A stretch of 33,402 nucleotides of DNA from contig JAIXWE010000005.1 of the NCBI GenBank assembly GCA_027482195.1, positions 1 through 33,402 on the forward strand. The letters are read 5' to 3'. Of the stretch, positions 1-33,402 are shown piece after piece. The translations under genes were made by a program, and so were the position numbers. The DNA is from Alphaproteobacteria bacterium (GTDB taxonomy: Bacteria; Pseudomonadota; Alphaproteobacteria; Micavibrionales; Micavibrionaceae). Every line of letters begins with the position of its first letter. Within the stretch, counting starts at the first letter, position 1. The notes beneath the pieces were generated by a model, which saw nothing but the letters and a program-made list of their open reading frames with translations, was not told the origin of the DNA and did not search any database.

Positions 1-77
1 GAATTAATACGTTTTTATCCGCGCTTTCAACGCCATAATCTTTGCTTATTTGTTCAAGCAAATACGCCAATTCCTGA
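1..77. repeat. Terminal direct repeat, left copy (circular closure)
   Basis: Bases 1-77 are identical to 33326-33402. A perfect overlap of 77 bases is the signature left by k-mer (k=77) assembly of a circular or circularly permuted molecule, so the unique circle is 33,325 bp. Reading across the joint restores one intact gene (HK97 gp10-like). A true short terminal repeat of the virion DNA is less likely, because it would lie inside a coding sequence. Confidence 0.93.
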
Positions 78-118
78 GCACCGTAAACAGAACTAAAACT
101 TTGCTTTGGTCCAGCCAT
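1..118 (-). CDS. HK97 gp10-like protein, N-terminal part (gene split by contig ends)
   Basis: The ATG at 118-116 (MAGPKQSFSS...) reads through base 1 and continues in frame at 33325, giving a 190-residue protein that ends at 32871. A ribosome binding site (GGAAGG) lies about 7 bases upstream, inside the end of the tail chaperone extension, whose stop at 120-122 is one base away. The apparent TTG start inside the right-end copy is an artefact of linearisation. Function is described under 32871-33402. Confidence 0.85.
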   Translation of the reverse strand, partial: MAGPKQSFSSVYGAQELAYLLEQISKDYGVESADKNVLI

Positions 119-119
119 T

Positions 120-458
120 TTAAAACCTTCCTTCCGAACCGGGCATCATCTGCATGAATAACAATAACCGCTTGTTTGCTTCCTCTGCTTTTTGTTGCTC
201 AGTCAATGGTCTGTAAATGTACTCATAAGACAGACCAAGAATCTCATTCAATGTATACGCTTTAGAATTGCCGCCACGAATGTAATTAAAAACACCAGTG
301 GTAAGCAATCCCAATGTATTCAAAATTACTTTGTTGCCTATAAACCCATCATTAATCGCAATCATTACAACATTAAAATCATCCTCGCTCATTGCATCTG
401 GATTTGCACCATGCGCTAACAAATATGCTCTAGTCTGCAAACGCAATGAGCCAATTAG
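120..458 (-). CDS. Tail assembly chaperone, frameshift extension (T part of a G/GT pair)
   Basis: This reading frame lies in the -1 frame of the upstream chaperone gene. It is open from the slippery site (458) to the stop at 120, giving 112 residues (LIGSLRLQTRAYLL...). No ATG opens it; the first possible start is a TTG at 446 with no ribosome binding site. It is therefore most simply made only as a fusion of 265 residues after -1 slippage, like lambda gpGT. In lambda the T part contacts tail tube protein while G coats the tape measure. Its position just before the tape measure (one gene intervenes) fits. The family is inferred from arrangement, because these proteins are poorly conserved in sequence. 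Confidence 0.82.
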   Translation of the reverse strand, partial: LIGSLRLQTRAYLLAHGANPDAMSEDDFNVVMIAINDGFIGNKVILNTLGLLTTGVFNYIRGGNSKAYTLNEILGLSYEYIYRPLTEQQKAEEANKRLLLFMQMMPGSEGRF

Positions 459-916
459 TTTTTTTTCGTTTCCTCATAACTAGGCGAAATTACTTCCGCA
501 ATTTTTTTCATTAATTCTAATTGCACAGGAAACGGAAACTCGCTGTTAATTTCTTCGTAAGTTAATTCATCCATGTTTGCGCCTTCCATTTCAGGCACAA
601 GCAATTTCACCATTTCCAAAACTCTTTGCTCAGTCTGAGCAGTAATTTTTGCCAAGTTTTTTACTGATCGACCATCAACAATTACATCATCATCCAAATA
701 AACAATTGAATCGCTTTGCAATGTTTCTTTTTTTTCCAGCAGCGGTTTAATTAATTCTTCTGTTTTCTTTGTAATATCAACTTCAGAAACGCGCTTATTT
801 ATAATTTCCATTTCTGATGCTAGTGGAACGCGAACCTTAAAGTTTTGACCGCCCAAAACAAATGATCGAGTTCTTAAAATTTGTTGATTAACTTTTAGAA
901 TTTCTGACAGTTTCAT
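455..916 (-). CDS. Tail assembly chaperone (gpG-like)
   Basis: A 153-residue mostly helical, charged protein starting MKLSEILKVNQQ and ending EETKKN. It sits between the tail tube genes and the tape measure gene, where siphoviruses encode the chaperone that binds nascent tape measure protein and recruits tube subunits. The last codons are ACG AAA AAA AAC TAA, which place a slippery heptamer immediately before the stop. The start ATG at 916 has AAGGAT upstream (GAAAGGATAAGAT). Identification rests on synteny plus the frameshift signal rather than on sequence family recognition. Confidence 0.8.
   Translation of the reverse strand: MKLSEILKVNQQILRTRSFVLGGQNFKVRVPLASEMEIINKRVSEVDITKKTEELIKPLLEKKETLQSDSIVYLDDDVIVDGRSVKNLAKITAQTEQRVLEMVKLLVPEMEGANMDELTYEEINSEFPFPVQLELMKKIAEVISPSYEETKKN
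458..464 (-). other. Programmed -1 ribosomal frameshift site, A AAA AAC
   Basis: On the minus strand the zero frame reads ACG AAA AAA AAC TAA. The heptamer A AAA AAC (464-458) has the X XXY YYZ phasing needed for tandem -1 slippage, and the zero-frame stop follows at once (457-455). An SD-like GAGGA (475-471) lies about 7 bases upstream and could stimulate slippage, as in dnaX. After slippage reading continues CTA ATT GGC TCA into the 112-residue extension. I did not find an obvious strong downstream stem-loop. Confidence 0.85.
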
Positions 917-3675: not shown

Positions 3676-4716
3676 TTAAGTCGCAATCAAACGAACACCG
3701 GCAAATGGATCGCGCACAGTCGATACCATGCGCTTTTCAGCAAACATTGTTACAAAGCCGGGCGCAGTCTGTTCCATCGCCTGAACAGTCATTTCCTCAA
3801 CATCGGCAATCGTCAGGAATTTAGCCCAATCAGCAAGGTAAATAGAAATGCTGCCGGTTGCAGTCCATGCATCCAAATACGGATTTGGGATCACAGGCCA
3901 ACCAAATACATTGACCACCGCACCGCCATTGTTCGTGCCGGTTTCCATAAAGTACGGAACATTGCCAGCCGATACCGCTTTGGTCAAAACATCGATTGCC
4001 GATGGATGCATCATCCATGCGGTTGTTGGCGAGTTCCAATATTGACCGGGCAGCGCAAGACGCATTTCCGACAATGTAGATTTGCTCAGACCGGCAACCG
4101 TTGCGCCGACTGTGGCAATAGTATGCCGACCATTGGTAATCGCTGTGCCGCTTGATCCAAACGCCGATACAGCACCAGCAGCGCCGGGATAACTATTCAG
4201 ACCGCGCAGACCATAAATGCCGCCTGTGCTGGTTGTAGTGCTTCCTGCCTGATCGTTATTTAAGCCCATTGACGCGCCTTCAAGTTGCGCGAATTCCATC
4301 ATCAAATCTTCAATGAGTTCGTTATTCAGGCCATTAACGTCTGACAATACCGCTGTGCGGATTGGCATCTGTGCGGTAATCACTCGCGTTGGCAATTGCC
4401 AAATCGATGTGTTGATATTAGGTGATCCGCTGTTGGGCGTGAATACATAGCCCCACGGGTTTGTGCTGTTTGCCGCATTACCTGTCTTTGCGACAAATTG
4501 AACGTCCGACATATTTGCGGTTTTGATTTGACGCGCACCCAAACGATATGGGTTGGCATATCGAAATGCTGCAAATACATCATCAAAGAAAGTTTGACCA
4601 CCAACACCAGAACCGCTGCCGGTAAGAGCAGAAGCCTCGCGCAAATCAATGGTGATTCTATCGCCAGTTTCTAGCGTCTGTTTGATACCGGTTAGGATTT
4701 TTTCGTTGGCTTTCAT
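3676..4716 (-). CDS. Second major capsid protein paralogue, lacking the delta (scaffold) domain
   Basis: A 346-residue HK97-fold capsid protein starting MKANEKILTGIKQ. It aligns with the upstream capsid protein from EASALTG onward: shared blocks include AKTGNA, IWQL, PIRTA, NNDQA, YGLRGL/NGLRGL and C-terminal EKR...PFAGVR. The upstream paralogue has about 105 residues before EASALTG; this one has only about 30, so the coiled-coil delta domain is essentially missing. I chose the ATG at 4716 because GGAA lies just upstream; alternatives are 4725 and 4758. It may build part of the shell (for example vertices) or be a variant shell protein. An intrinsic terminator separates it from copy 1. Confidence 0.88.
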   Translation of the reverse strand: MKANEKILTGIKQTLETGDRITIDLREASALTGSGSGVGGQTFFDDVFAAFRYANPYRLGARQIKTANMSDVQFVAKTGNAANSTNPWGYVFTPNSGSPNINTSIWQLPTRVITAQMPIRTAVLSDVNGLNNELIEDLMMEFAQLEGASMGLNNDQAGSTTTSTGGIYGLRGLNSYPGAAGAVSAFGSSGTAITNGRHTIATVGATVAGLSKSTLSEMRLALPGQYWNSPTTAWMMHPSAIDVLTKAVSAGNVPYFMETGTNNGGAVVNVFGWPVIPNPYLDAWTATGSISIYLADWAKFLTIADVEEMTVQAMEQTAPGFVTMFAEKRMVSTVRDPFAGVRLIAT

Positions 4717-4738
4717 TTTTTCCATTCCCAAATTTAGC

Positions 4739-4768
4739 AAAAAACCCCGGCAGCACACGCCACCGGGG
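4739..4768 (-). terminator. Intrinsic terminator between the two capsid genes
   Basis: On the minus strand: CCCCGG, a 12-base loop, CCGGGG, then six U. The perfect 6-bp G/C stem and U-tract make a good rho-independent terminator 11 bases after the stop of capsid copy 1. It would favour copy 1 transcripts and lower expression of capsid copy 2 and genes beyond unless antiterminated. Confidence 0.88.
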
Positions 4769-4779
4769 AAGCCGCATCA

Positions 4780-6123
4780 TTAGGTTGACGTGCCAGTAGA
4801 ACGATAACGAACACCAGCAAACGGGTTGACAACCGAAGTTGCCAAACGCTTTTCACCAAAGAACGTGATGAAGCCGGGGAGGGTTTGATCGTAACGGCGC
4901 ATGACCATCGACAGACGATCAACAGTGGTATGGAAACGCGACCAATCTGCAAAGTACATTGGATACAGGCTATTAGTACCAGCCGATCCAGTGGTCAACT
5001 GCGAAGGCGTATCGCAATACTTGTTGACGATAACGTCAAAGCCCATCAGCGTACCGACAATGCCATCATCACGCGACAAACCGTCAATGTAGATCGGGCG
5101 CTTCTGATCATCAACCAGACCGCGAATCTGCTGAAGCAGTACAGGGTTAATCATAAACTTAGCATCGGGAGTCCAGTATTCCTGTGGCAGCGAATAGACA
5201 AAATTCACAACGTCTTTGTATGTGATATTACCCGCACCGACCGTATTGGCGTTGGTGGTGAGCTGGTCATAAGTAGCAAGCGAATGCAGACCAGTAGTGC
5301 TACCAGTACCGCTATTGCCAAAAGCGGCAGTAGTAACAGAACCGCCAGCGTAAGTTGCAGCAGAACCAGCGTACTGATCCAGACCGCGCAGACCGTTTGT
5401 GCCACCGTATGGGTTGGAAACAGATTGAGCAGCTTGGTCATTGTTCTGCACCATTGAGAGTGCTTCAGACTGAGAGAATTCCAGCAGCATATCCGAAACA
5501 ACATTTGCTTCCAGACCGTCAATGTCATCCAGCGCAGCGGTACGGATTGGGAACTGGACGTTAATATCTTGCAGAACCAATTGCCAAATGGTTGTATCTT
5601 CAGTTGTGGTTGCACCGTTGTTCTGGATGGTGTAACCCCATGCAGCACCAGCGTTGCCGGTTTTTGCACGGAACTGATACGAAGAACCATCGGTTGCAAC
5701 TTGACGCGAAATTTGACGCATTGGGTTTGCAAGACGCAGCGGAGCAAACACTGGATCATAGGCAGTGCGACCACCCTGATTGTTACCGCCGCCTGTCAAT
5801 GCCGATGCTTCCTTCATGTATGCATCATATTCAGCAGCATCTTCAAACAGTTTCAGTTCCTTTTCCATGCGGGAATTGGATTTGTAGAACTGTGCAAGCG
5901 ATTCACGAACACGGCGATTAACGTCAACCTGAATGCCTTTGTTTGCGCGAACAATCTCAGGTGCGCGAATCTGTGCAACCTTTGCTTCCAGTGCTGCGAC
6001 CTTTTCGGCAAAAGAAACTTCAGCAGCAGCAACTGCCTCAGACACTTTTTCAGAAACGATTGCTTCGGTTTTTTCTTGCAGGTTCGATTCAATGGAATCG
6101 AGTTTTTCAATAATTTTGTCCAT
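4780..6123 (-). CDS. Major capsid protein, HK97 fold, with N-terminal scaffold domain
   Basis: A 447-residue protein. Residues 1 to about 60 (MDKIIEKLDSIESNLQ..., then repeated Ala/Glu/Lys heptads) predict a coiled coil, the delta domain that scaffolds assembly in HK97-type phages. The shell domain starts near EASALTGGG (about residue 106), the probable protease cleavage area, and ends GFITFFGEKR...NPFAGVRYRS, a typical HK97 capsid C-terminus. It follows the prohead protease and is followed by a strong terminator and a paralogous capsid gene. Confidence 0.95.
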   Translation of the reverse strand: MDKIIEKLDSIESNLQEKTEAIVSEKVSEAVAAAEVSFAEKVAALEAKVAQIRAPEIVRANKGIQVDVNRRVRESLAQFYKSNSRMEKELKLFEDAAEYDAYMKEASALTGGGNNQGGRTAYDPVFAPLRLANPMRQISRQVATDGSSYQFRAKTGNAGAAWGYTIQNNGATTTEDTTIWQLVLQDINVQFPIRTAALDDIDGLEANVVSDMLLEFSQSEALSMVQNNDQAAQSVSNPYGGTNGLRGLDQYAGSAATYAGGSVTTAAFGNSGTGSTTGLHSLATYDQLTTNANTVGAGNITYKDVVNFVYSLPQEYWTPDAKFMINPVLLQQIRGLVDDQKRPIYIDGLSRDDGIVGTLMGFDVIVNKYCDTPSQLTTGSAGTNSLYPMYFADWSRFHTTVDRLSMVMRRYDQTLPGFITFFGEKRLATSVVNPFAGVRYRSTGTST

Positions 6124-12997: not shown

Positions 12998-13288
12998 TTA
13001 ATCCCTAGTTTGCTTTTGTATTTCTTCCCATGCCATTTCGGGCGAATTTACTACTGCAATTTGCCCTTTCCACTCATAATGCCACAGTCTTTGCTCTGGT
13101 GTAAGTACCTGCGCCGAAAGCGGTTTGCTGCCGTCTTTAATTTCGAGCAATATATTTTTGCCTTTATATCCGCAAACCAGATCAGGGAAACCGCGCCCGG
13201 TTGCGCTGGTAATTGATACCGTCACATTCTTTTCACGCAGAAACCGAACTACGGCTTTTTGGTTATCATCCACCCGCGCAATTTTCAT
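12998..13288 (-). CDS. PD-(D/E)XK nuclease (VRR-NUC-like)
   Basis: A 96-residue protein (MKIARVDDNQKAVVRFL...). The catalytic signature is visible: GRGFPDLVCGYKG with Pro35-Asp36, then ILLEIKDG with Glu49-x-Lys51, followed by LTPEQRLWHYEWKGQIAVV. This is the compact VRR-NUC/Holliday-junction-resolvase-like fold found in many phages, which may process branched DNA or recombination ends. Its ATG overlaps the upstream stop (ATGA). Confidence 0.85.
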   Translation of the reverse strand: MKIARVDDNQKAVVRFLREKNVTVSITSATGRGFPDLVCGYKGKNILLEIKDGSKPLSAQVLTPEQRLWHYEWKGQIAVVNSPEMAWEEIQKQTRD

Positions 13289-13764
13289 GTGTTTTTTTCC
13301 TTTAACTTGGCTTCAATGGCACAGGCAAAGTTTCCCCAATTTAGATTTTCCAAATGTAATTCTTGTATCTCGTAAGCCGTTAGCCGTTGCCATTCGCGCT
13401 GTGGTGGGGCGTTGATGGTCAAGATGCCATCCTGCTTTGCACCGCACTTTGTGCATTCAACTTCCATCAGGTACTTGTCAGCCACCGGCTCCGGTTCTTT
13501 GCGCTGTGGTGGGGCGGCAGCTGAAAGGAATCCGCACTCTTGATCAAACGCTCGCTGCTCCATATCGCCCAGCTTTAGCAGTCGCTCCGGTTCAGGTGCG
13601 CTAAGTCGGGCGCGGAGGGTTTCGATTGCTTCACCAGAGACATCCATTGCTTCATCAAAATCACGAACTCGGTTCTTCTTATCGCGCTCACCTGCCGCCC
13701 ATCTAATTCTTGTCAACGCATCCAGCACCTGCTGCGCTTCCTCGCGGGTTAGTGTGATGGTCAT
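13285..13764 (-). CDS. Hypothetical accessory protein with repeated APPQR motif and CxxC
   Basis: A 159-residue protein (MTITLTREEAQQVLDAL...). N-terminal helical region resembles proteins common in betaproteobacterial phages. Two APPQR motifs (about residues 84-88 and 119-123) suggest an internal duplication of a linker, and VECTKCGAKQDG gives a single CxxC. The C-terminus QRLTAYEIQELH...NWGNFACAIEAKL is also widespread in phages. Function unknown. The start overlaps the upstream stop. Confidence 0.72.
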   Translation of the reverse strand: MTITLTREEAQQVLDALTRIRWAAGERDKKNRVRDFDEAMDVSGEAIETLRARLSAPEPERLLKLGDMEQRAFDQECGFLSAAAPPQRKEPEPVADKYLMEVECTKCGAKQDGILTINAPPQREWQRLTAYEIQELHLENLNWGNFACAIEAKLKEKNT

Positions 13765-29893: not shown

Positions 29894-32860
29894 TTATCTC
29901 GATATTGGAACACTACGATTTGCGCTTTGATACGCAGCCCAAATTGTATTTTTATTTGATGCAAGAAACTGCGTTGCCGATTGCGTATCAATTGCACTCA
30001 TGCTGGCAATGTATGTGCCGTTATTTGTAAAGCCGCCTTTGTTCATATTAGCCGCAGCTTGTTGCCATGATCCGTTTGGAATGACAGTGCCGGGAGTATT
30101 TGGCATAAATAATTCAGGACCATTTTCTCCAACTAATGTTAATCCGTTAATCGCGCCACCAGATGCAGCCTCTCCATATCCAACACTAATGCCAGCGTCA
30201 TAATTCATGGTTTTTATTCCAGCAGGAGTAAAAAACCCAACAAGCGATCTAAACAACATAGATGCTTGCGCTTGCATTTCCATGCGAATCAAATCTTTAA
30301 TAATTGATAAAGCAAATTCTTCAAATTTAAATTCGCCTGTTTCCACAAAATTGCTAATTGCTGCATCCATATTGCTCATAACAGTTGAAAATGCAGCCTC
30401 TCCACGCTTAAAAGCATTTTCAGCGGTTTCTTGAAATTGACGCGCAGAATATTCCCATCCATCAACAAAACTTCTTTGCCGTTCTATTTCCTTTTCTAAA
30501 TTTTGTTGACGCGCATTATTTATTTGATCTATCGCATCAAGTTCAATATCTCTTATTTCTTCAATGCTTTTAATTCTTTGTTCGTATTCTTCACGCGCTT
30601 TTTGTCCACCACCTTGACGCTTCATTTCATATTCAGCTTCTTTCATTTGATCGTTATATTTTTTTTCTGCTTCAATCAAACGGTGAATATTCTCCAATGC
30701 AAGATTAGACAAGTTATATTGATTAGTAGACATCAAATAACGATTGCCTTCTAGTTGCAATCGTTGTTTTTCAATATTTAATGTTGATTGAATGTTGGCA
30801 ATGTCGCGCCCTTTTTGCTGCGCCAAATCCAATTTAAACATTTTGTCTTCTAAATCAAACTGTTCTTTTGTTGCTTCTTTTCTTACTTCTTGAAGTCTAA
30901 CAATTGAATCAATTACAATTAATTCATTGTCTAATATTTTATTTCTATTTGCGTCAAGCAACATAAGATCGTGGAGAGTTTTTCCAGTTAACTCATATGC
31001 TTCATTTAATTCTTTTATTTTTTGTTTTGTTTCATCTTTTATTTTTTTAATTTCTTGTTCATATTCAATATCTAATTTTTTTTGTGCATAGGCAGCAGAG
31101 CCAAGATTAAATCTGTCTCTTTCTAAATTAATTAATTCAATTGTATTATCTGTTTCTTGTCTTAAAGTTACCATTCGTAAAGCAGTTTCATCTTTAACTG
31201 CTTTAATAGTTATGTCATGATTTCTTTTTTGTTCTTGTGCCAGTATTGTTGATCTTGCTTCTTGTATTGCAATGATTCTATTTTTTTCTTGCTGATATTG
31301 TTGATCTGCCAATTGCATATTTTTTTGACGCACTGCTGCATCTTCTGCTGATTTTGCAGATAAATCATATGCTCTCTCAATATCAATTAAAGTATTTGAA
31401 TATTGAGCACCTGCTTTTGCTAATTGATTTGCTTGTTCAACTTCTAATTTACGCAATTCATATGTGCCTTCACCAATTTCAAATTTTTCTTTTTCTAAAG
31501 AAAGCAAATCATATGTTGCTTTATATTCTGCATCATTAGTGTTAGCTTGTTTTTTATATTCAGTATCAATATTTTGCATCGTAATTTGATGCTGATGCGC
31601 TAATGCTTTTTGACGCAGACCATTTTCTATACCAAATTGTTTAACCCTCGCATCAATTGCAGCCTTTTCTTTTGCATTAATTAAATCAACTTGCGCTTTT
31701 TCTTTGTTACGCTCTTTTGCCGCATCATTACGAATTTGTGCAAGATCACTTGCCAAATTTAATATCATTTTTTCTTGCGCTATTGCAGCCTCACCTAGCG
31801 GAATTCCTTTGGCATCAATAGCAAACATTTTGTCGGCAATGTCTGCTTTTTCTTTTATTAGTTTAATTTCAAGTTCTAATGCTCTACGTGTTTCTTGTTT
31901 GCGCTTTTCTTCCTCTGCCGCAGCTTTTGCATCAGACTGCCCTTTTTTTGAAGGATTTTTATAATCGCCAGCAACAGCTGCTTTTGCAATTTCTATTGCT
32001 GCCCTGTTTTGTCTTTGTGGTGATGCGCCATAACCATGAGTTATTGCTGTGCCGGACATACCGCCCAATTCACCTGCGCCCCAATCAATTTCTGCGCTAC
32101 CACCTTCCTTTAAATTTTGCATTGTGTCCGCAATGTTTGCTATTGAATTAACAATTGCAGCCAATGGAGAAACCAATTTTTGAGCAAAGAAAAGAATATT
32201 TTTAAATGCCGCTTCTATGTTTTCCCATGCTTTTGCATTTTCTTGTATTGCAGAAAGCAAAGCCGGATCGCCCATTTCTTTGTATTTGTTTACAAAAGTT
32301 GAAGCGTCTACACCTTTCATCGCCTTACCAAGAATTTGATTTTGTAATGCTGCTCTTTTGCCAGCATCTTCTACTTGCGCCAATTCTTGTACTACTCTTT
32401 TGAACAAATCTTCCAGCTTTAGATTTTCAACATCTTTCCCGCTAATTTTTAATTCAGTAAATGCTTTGCGTAATTCGTCGCTACCCTCAATTGCATCTTG
32501 TTGAACACTTGCCAATTTGTTTAATGATGTGCCTATGTTATCAGCCTCGCCGCCAGCACCTTGCATCGCCGCTTGCATTGCAATTAATGATGATGTTGTT
32601 ACATCATAAGCAGCGGCAGTATCTTCAATTTGATCGGCATATTGGAATGCTTTTCCAACAACCAATGCAGCAGCAGCAACACCAGCAAGACCTGTTGCCG
32701 CTGTTGTCATAAACTCATCTTGCGCTTTTTGTGCATTACGCAACGCGCGCTTTTGATTCATTTCAAATTCGCGCGTTTTCTTTGTGGCATCATCAATGCC
32801 AGAAATAAATTCTTTGTTATCTAAACCAAGAATGACACCAAGCCGCGCAATTAATGACAT
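29894..32860 (-). CDS. Tape measure protein
   Basis: A 988-residue protein. N-terminal MSLIARLGVILGLDNKEFISGIDDATKKTREFE fits TMP families. Hydrophobic segments near residues 52-70 (TAATGLAGVAAAALVVG) and 235-255 (LFFAQKLVSPLAAIV). The middle (about 300-830) is a long Lys/Glu/Gln-rich coil. The C-terminus has GGAINGLTLVGENGPELFMPN and NGTYIASMSA, typical of TMP ends. At about 1.5 A per residue the tail would be near 150 nm (inference). Coding is very AT-rich in the middle. AAAGGG site before ATG. Confidence 0.95.
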   Translation of the reverse strand: MSLIARLGVILGLDNKEFISGIDDATKKTREFEMNQKRALRNAQKAQDEFMTTAATGLAGVAAAALVVGKAFQYADQIEDTAAAYDVTTSSLIAMQAAMQGAGGEADNIGTSLNKLASVQQDAIEGSDELRKAFTELKISGKDVENLKLEDLFKRVVQELAQVEDAGKRAALQNQILGKAMKGVDASTFVNKYKEMGDPALLSAIQENAKAWENIEAAFKNILFFAQKLVSPLAAIVNSIANIADTMQNLKEGGSAEIDWGAGELGGMSGTAITHGYGASPQRQNRAAIEIAKAAVAGDYKNPSKKGQSDAKAAAEEEKRKQETRRALELEIKLIKEKADIADKMFAIDAKGIPLGEAAIAQEKMILNLASDLAQIRNDAAKERNKEKAQVDLINAKEKAAIDARVKQFGIENGLRQKALAHQHQITMQNIDTEYKKQANTNDAEYKATYDLLSLEKEKFEIGEGTYELRKLEVEQANQLAKAGAQYSNTLIDIERAYDLSAKSAEDAAVRQKNMQLADQQYQQEKNRIIAIQEARSTILAQEQKRNHDITIKAVKDETALRMVTLRQETDNTIELINLERDRFNLGSAAYAQKKLDIEYEQEIKKIKDETKQKIKELNEAYELTGKTLHDLMLLDANRNKILDNELIVIDSIVRLQEVRKEATKEQFDLEDKMFKLDLAQQKGRDIANIQSTLNIEKQRLQLEGNRYLMSTNQYNLSNLALENIHRLIEAEKKYNDQMKEAEYEMKRQGGGQKAREEYEQRIKSIEEIRDIELDAIDQINNARQQNLEKEIERQRSFVDGWEYSARQFQETAENAFKRGEAAFSTVMSNMDAAISNFVETGEFKFEEFALSIIKDLIRMEMQAQASMLFRSLVGFFTPAGIKTMNYDAGISVGYGEAASGGAINGLTLVGENGPELFMPNTPGTVIPNGSWQQAAANMNKGGFTNNGTYIASMSAIDTQSATQFLASNKNTIWAAYQSANRSVPISR

Positions 32861-32870
32861 GATTTACCCT

Positions 32871-33402
32871 TTACTTTGCTTTGCTTTGTTTTGCTTTATA
32901 TTTTGTAATTTGATTTTGTATTTCAATTTTTAATTTTTCTGCAACCGCATCTTGATTTTTTTCAAGTGCTGGCCTTAAATATGGCCTTGGAGCCATTCTT
33001 GCCGAACCAAATTCACGTTGCAATGCTAATTGACCACGCTTTGACAAGCCTTTAGGCATAGCCATTGTTTTATTATGATTCTTTGTGCCGTATTCAACAA
33101 ACATTGCGCGACCATCAGAAATATCTTTTCCTTCCAATATTGCGCTTACTTGAGCAATAACCAAATCGGTTGGTTTAACATACATTGACCTTTGATCTTT
33201 TGGTTTAGCCAATCTTGCATCAACGCGCAAAGTTCTTTGCAATTGACCTGTATCATAACCATGCCCCGGTTTTAAATTAGCTTTAGCCGCATTTAATACA
33301 ATAGTCATTGCTGTTTTTGCAGCAGGAATTAATACGTTTTTATCCGCGCTTTCAACGCCATAATCTTTGCTTATTTGTTCAAGCAAATACGCCAATTCCT
33401 GA
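32871..33402 (-). CDS. HK97 gp10-like tail/neck completion protein (partial here; N-terminus at 1-118)
   Basis: Joined with 1-118 across the circle the protein has 190 residues. Pattern: GHGYDTGQLQRTLRVDARL, AMFVEYGTKNHNKTMAMPKGL and GSARMAPRPYLRPALEK, the R-x-x-P-x-x-RPAxE core of the HK97 gp10 family. The C-terminus is basic and repetitive (KYKAKQSKAK). HK97 gp10 proteins are normally encoded before the tail terminator; here the gene lies just before the tape measure. Confidence 0.85.
   Translation of the reverse strand, partial: QELAYLLEQISKDYGVESADKNVLIPAAKTAMTIVLNAAKANLKPGHGYDTGQLQRTLRVDARLAKPKDQRSMYVKPTDLVIAQVSAILEGKDISDGRAMFVEYGTKNHNKTMAMPKGLSKRGQLALQREFGSARMAPRPYLRPALEKNQDAVAEKLKIEIQNQITKYKAKQSKAK
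33326..33402. repeat. Terminal direct repeat, right copy
   Basis: Exact copy of bases 1-77. It should be counted once in the circular genome. Confidence 0.93.

Follow-up and report, generated by a model that had tools for sequence, protein, structure and literature searches.

What joins two short, overlapping reading frames at one end of this phage-like contig, and what do they make? In the window (the whole 33,402-nucleotide stretch that was analysed), a minus-strand frame, G, closes as ACG AAA AAA AAC TAA, and a second frame, T, runs on in the -1 register. An earlier note, made from the sequence alone, had read this as a G/GT-type -1 frameshift joining two tail chaperone frames. We are highly confident that a -1 programmed ribosomal frameshift yields a tail assembly chaperone, G, together with a minority G-T fusion, as for lambda gpG/gpGT. 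The earlier reading is thus supported by the heptamer, the open frame, selection on T, an HK97-like fold of G, a nearby tape measure gene and an SD-like element (Table 1). Sequence comparison and structure prediction show how the signal is laid out, that T is under selection and which fold G probably has; the slippage itself is inferred.

Table 1. Positions of the G-T junction, its putative signals and the genes that follow it
Feature	Position	Strand	Basis
G frame, 153 aa/codons; zero-frame stop TAA at 457..455	916..458	minus	ORF reading
Slippery heptamer A_AAA_AAC, inside A8 run 466..459	464..458	minus	Direct sequence
SD-like GAGG, 7 nt upstream of heptamer	475..472	minus	Codon bias in relatives
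Predicted stem-loop starting 6 nt downstream of the heptamer, with arms 451..438 and 400..387	451..387	minus	Fold and comparison
T extension, -1 frame, 112 codons; stop TAA at 122..120	CTA at 458..456 to 123	minus	Open frame, dN/dS
Neck/tail-completion (HK97 gp10-like) gene	118..1, across the 77-bp contig overlap to 33401..32871	minus	PHROG 5 'tail completion or Neck1', E 2.9e-12
Tape measure protein, 988 aa, next after neck gene	29894..32860	minus	PHROG 339, E 7.7e-17; Pfam Tape_meas_lam_C, E 2.8e-12

Direct reading of the minus strand confirmed both the zero-frame ending and the open -1 frame that the earlier note had described. The note had T ending 2 bases before the next gene, whereas a single base (119) separates the T stop from that gene's ATG (118..116). 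After a slip, reading would continue as CTA ATT GGC TCA TTG CGT (L-I-G-S-L-R), giving a predicted fusion of 265 aa. When the T region was base-shuffled 20,000 times, the frame stayed open in 2 cases, and in-frame X_XXY_YYZ heptamers number 56 in the 8,841 codons of the window's predicted genes; as evidence, recurrence in relatives is more decisive than either chance figure. We set aside a second in-frame AAAAAAC, located 3 nt before the stop of the gene at 13764..13285, where it overlaps an ATGA start of the ordinary kind.

To follow the junction across relatives, we searched IMG/VR with G, T and their profiles and included one genome contig, obtaining 72 distinct complete G-T pairs. This set was gathered by three heptamers (A_AAA_AAC, G_GGA_AAG and G_GGA_AAA), and relatives without a heptamer were inspected separately; one search pattern held the K-N codons in degenerate form, which favours amino acids, not codons. 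Conservation of the heptamer in related phages, the check proposed in the earlier note, was borne out: among these heptamer-collected loci, A_AAA_AAC (n = 63) or G_GGA_AAR (n = 9; five G_GGA_AAG and four G_GGA_AAA) stands at the same point, with a stop immediately 3' of it in 71 of the 72 distinct loci and one codon later in the remaining one. In the contigs related to L173, GGA AAG or GGA AAA precedes the stop and the preceding base is G in all, which is the lambda-type G_GGA_AAR. All 63 K-N loci carry A_AAA_AAC exactly, and the base preceding AAA AAC is always A, against a codon background in these genes of ~35-37% AAC for Asn, ~75% AAA for Lys and 39% A-ending codons for Arg. Conservation of the slip site therefore exceeds what codon usage gives, with the clade of Methylophilaceae phage P19250A, which was collected apart, as the exception. 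Some 16-23 A_AAA_AAC lineages were left after clustering at 70-80% identity, so this conservation does not reflect one recent copy.

The G-T arrangement was found in every relative examined except one clade with a different slip site. The -1 frame of several relatives has a stop directly adjoining the heptamer, which leaves this as the only place where a shift would be possible. A strict motif filter had suggested relatives lacking the heptamer, but this filter was too narrow, and on inspection all of these with a readable junction, P19250A excepted, had the heptamer. Separately, a G-T pair with the same A_AAA_AAC junction occurs on a contig labelled as part of a Nitrosotalea (archaeal) bin (L178, JAHEYD010000010.1), which is possibly a mis-binned phage contig.

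The T frame behaves as coding sequence. The T region had a median dN/dS of 0.28 when read in the -1 frame but 0.99 and 2.17 when read in the two others, compared with a median of 0.33 for G, indicating that T is under protein-level purifying selection, in the -1 frame only. This selection argues against G and T being one gene broken by an indel, whether by sequencing or assembly error or by decay. Although the junction is located in a homopolymer, as such a break might be, dozens of contigs that were assembled independently show the same arrangement, with three site sequences among them, and we assign this explanation a negligible probability.

Another possibility is that T is a separate gene with an internal start, translated by coupling to the G stop. 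It is annotated as its own CDS in the P19250A record, and in the window a TTG (446) lies a few codons past the junction. This TTG and an ATG ~25 codons in are the earliest candidate starts, and a search for a recognisable SD before each of the two returned none; the earlier note had likewise stated that the -1 frame has no ATG or ribosome binding site of its own, and there is indeed no ATG near the junction. Furthermore, conserved residues (K-L-I-G-S-L-R-x-Q) begin at the junction itself, reaching the heptamer upstream of any ATG of T, the first Met in the G_GGA_AAR clade is 33 codons in, and coupling would leave the fixed heptamer unexplained. An independent T gene is therefore very unlikely.

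Frameshifting in this gene would probably be assisted from both sides of the slip site. Upstream, the GAGG lies within a conserved Glu-Glu of G. The first Glu codon of this pair is GAG in 52 of 56 genes versus a 14% GAG background elsewhere, with a p-value that is too small given that the 56 sequences are related, and the second is GAG in only 1 of 56, which indicates codon choice rather than amino-acid choice. By this comparison the SD-like GAGG is under selection, giving support to an element (GAGGA) that the earlier note had only suggested. An exact anti-SD pattern had no match in the 1.8-Mb genome bin to which the contig belongs.

Downstream, our analysis adds a stem-loop that was absent from the earlier note. 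In the window it is predicted to form 14 pairs with a fold of -26 kcal/mol, and its inner part probably forms small hairpins. Stimulators usually start 5-8 nt downstream of the slip site (PMC4066793), and the 6-nt spacer and stem of the window agree with this rule. Across the 72 sequences, the first 84 nt past the slip had a mean z of -3.3 relative to codon shuffles that keep the T protein (94% of sequences below -2), and a scan along the gene in 21 spread sequences gave a mean z of -3.25 at this position, against -1.2 to 0.1 at all others. RNAalifold recovered the stem from 47 sequences of a single clade, with pairing kept in 93% of cells, and sliding the partner arm by one to three bases reduced pairing to 25-40%. 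From the pooled alignment the same program predicted none, an outcome that apparently arose from the inclusion of diverged clades whose stems differ. Compensatory double changes were seen at three stem pairs (C-G to G-C in 9 sequences, U-A to C-G in 2 and G-C to A-U in 1), a count matched by 29 of 500 shuffles, with kinship among the sequences inflating this and the other significance figures.

These two elements also help in weighing transcriptional slippage, in which slipping of RNA polymerase at the A8 run would yield mRNAs that contain one additional A and encode G-T by ordinary translation. A runs can cause such slippage (PMC3711429), and the window has eight consecutive A. Most relatives, however, carry six A only (AGA AAA AAC or CGA AAA AAC) and others have GGGAAAR, both too short for efficient slippage, and neither a downstream stem nor an SD-like element has a known role in that process. 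We consider it extremely unlikely that polymerase slippage is the source of the fusion, but within the clade of the window it may make a small contribution.

The nearest isolate, Methylophilaceae phage P19250A (KX815270; terminase 70%, G-T 38%), belongs to the clade in which the junction lacks the heptamer. There, 78 of 80 loci (L179-L258; 51 distinct junctions) have UCA AAG and then directly a stop, UAA or UAG, and the base before UCA varies; P19250A itself (L063:10295-10320) has UCA AAG UAG. At UCA_AAG_UAR only the Lys tRNA could re-pair well (AAG to AAA), and we regard A_AAG directly before the stop as a candidate single-tRNA slip site. In E. coli, A_AAG is the most shift-prone tetramer, and with strong stimulators tetramers reach at most 5.6% (PMC4066793). 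Because the -1 frame of some members is closed 7 nt upstream of the stop, a slip in those members must fall on the last two codons. The stem after the P19250A site had a z of -2.1, and the clade average was weaker (z -1.8). On balance, we think that one orthologous junction has probably switched among A_AAA_AAC, G_GGA_AAR and a lone A_AAG (UCA_AAG_UAR) while its place and downstream stem were kept. If true, this would provide a natural series for studying slip-site evolution and for asking if single-tRNA slippage is aided when the A site holds a stop codon.

Next, we asked what kind of protein G is. Searches of G and T against PHROG and Pfam gave no significant match to a named family, a sequence search of solved structures gave no relative of either, and Foldseek alone found no significant match in the PDB. 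Among structures compared with the AlphaFold2 model of G (pLDDT 89), the HK97 tail assembly chaperone 2OB9 ranked first (Z 5.8, rmsd 4.2 over 102 residues) and 3FGX third; both are called tail chaperones (PMC9603447). G is thus predicted to have the HK97 (gp13) tail-chaperone fold, with a middling score obtained on a predicted model. The model of T (pLDDT 84, pTM 0.53) had significant structural matches to unnamed phage proteins only.

The late genes on the minus strand run in the order terminase, portal, two capsid-like genes, connectors, two tail-tube-like genes, a 75-aa gene, G, T, neck and tape measure, placing G-T between the major tail protein (PHROG 158, upstream) and the tape measure (PHROG 339, downstream). 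The tape measure gene is not directly next to T but is separated from it by one neck-type gene, which is homologous (36% identity) to P19250A gene 12, where it precedes G. Taken together, the HK97-like match of the model, the gene position and the frameshift fit one function, that of a tail assembly chaperone. Among the family members that were read, a neck gene lies between T and the tape measure in most, and T is directly followed by the tape measure in L104, L172 and L173.

Two further pairs of neighbouring genes were observed in this region. The adjacent tail-tube-like genes (1187-1705 and 1720-2214) are 74% identical and appear to be a tandem duplication, with a single gene at that place in P19250A. 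The adjacent major-capsid-like proteins (3676-4758 and 4780-6123) are 38% identical over 369 aligned columns, and the downstream one (3676-4758) is without the N-terminal part of its neighbour.

The two ends of the contig are identical over 77 bp (1-77 and 33326-33402), and the window is therefore most likely the genome, ~33.3 kb long, of a phage that is circular or circularly permuted; it is probably complete, closes into a circle and was binned with a bacterial genome. T relatives were sought in 57 related genomes and none were found, so the bin does not firmly point to a host.

By analogy with dnaX, IS1 and lambda, we propose the following sequence of events. Most ribosomes would read G and halt at the UAA, releasing the 153-aa protein. 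In a minority, pairing of the upstream GAGG with 16S rRNA during decoding of AAA AAC, together with resistance of the downstream stem to unwinding, would cause a stall, and tRNA-Lys and tRNA-Asn would re-pair one base back on AAA AAA. Translation would then proceed through CUA AUU and the rest of T, producing the fusion with the junction K-N-L-I-G-S-L-R. The tape measure would then be coated by G, and tail-tube subunits would be brought in by the scarce G-T fusion. In E. coli, A_AAA_AAC shifts with low efficiency (PMC4066793), and the two stimulators may have been kept because it is weak on its own.

These results extend G/GT frameshifting to a family of mostly uncultured phages. Its chaperones match no named profile family, and the two frames are consequently annotated as unrelated hypothetical proteins, as in the P19250A record, where G and T are separate CDSs. 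Among papers on this phage group, PMC8024684 contains nothing on frameshifting and PMC8163748 mentions it for another phage only. The family also makes a clear case, by comparison, for an RNA stimulator located downstream of the slip site in a tail-chaperone gene, and its homologous junctions with different slip sites form a set for testing how the frameshift rate is tuned.

Finally, we compared the junction with known systems. In lambda, the tail chaperone gene precedes the tape measure gene, and slipping back by one base close to where the first frame ends appends the C-terminal T domain to a minority product (PMC5009743). The window shares the chaperone gene and T extension, and some of its relatives have lambda's identical G_GGA_AAG at the same point. 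It differs in its A_AAA_AAC heptamer, as the earlier note had recognized, and in the immediate stop, the SD-like element, the conserved stem and the neck gene between T and the tape measure. The E. coli dnaX signal combines an SD-like element, an A-rich heptamer and a downstream stem-loop (PMC3711429), a three-part layout found here within a tail-chaperone gene, but its heptamer is A_AAA_AAG and its slip makes a shorter product, whereas that of the window would extend the protein. A_AAA_AAC itself is a proven natural shift site in IS1 insA-insB' (A6C motif), where it lies near the end of the first frame and yields a longer fusion (PMC12428005); IS1, however, carries a transposase gene, and its stimulator is described as a possible pseudoknot, with no established stimulator listed in another account (PMC4066793). 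The haloarchaeal virus HCTV-2 is reported to use the same heptamer as the g-t shift site of its tail chaperone gene (PMC5009743); this archaeal virus is likened to the window by slip site. P19250A shares a homologous terminase, G-T and the downstream stem, but differs in having no heptamer and in having its neck gene before G. Thus, G/GT frameshifting, the A_AAA_AAC heptamer (IS1, HCTV-2) and the dnaX three-part layout were already known; new, relative to the literature consulted, are the chaperone family itself, the support that comparison lends to both stimulators, and the probable exchange of slip sites at one junction.
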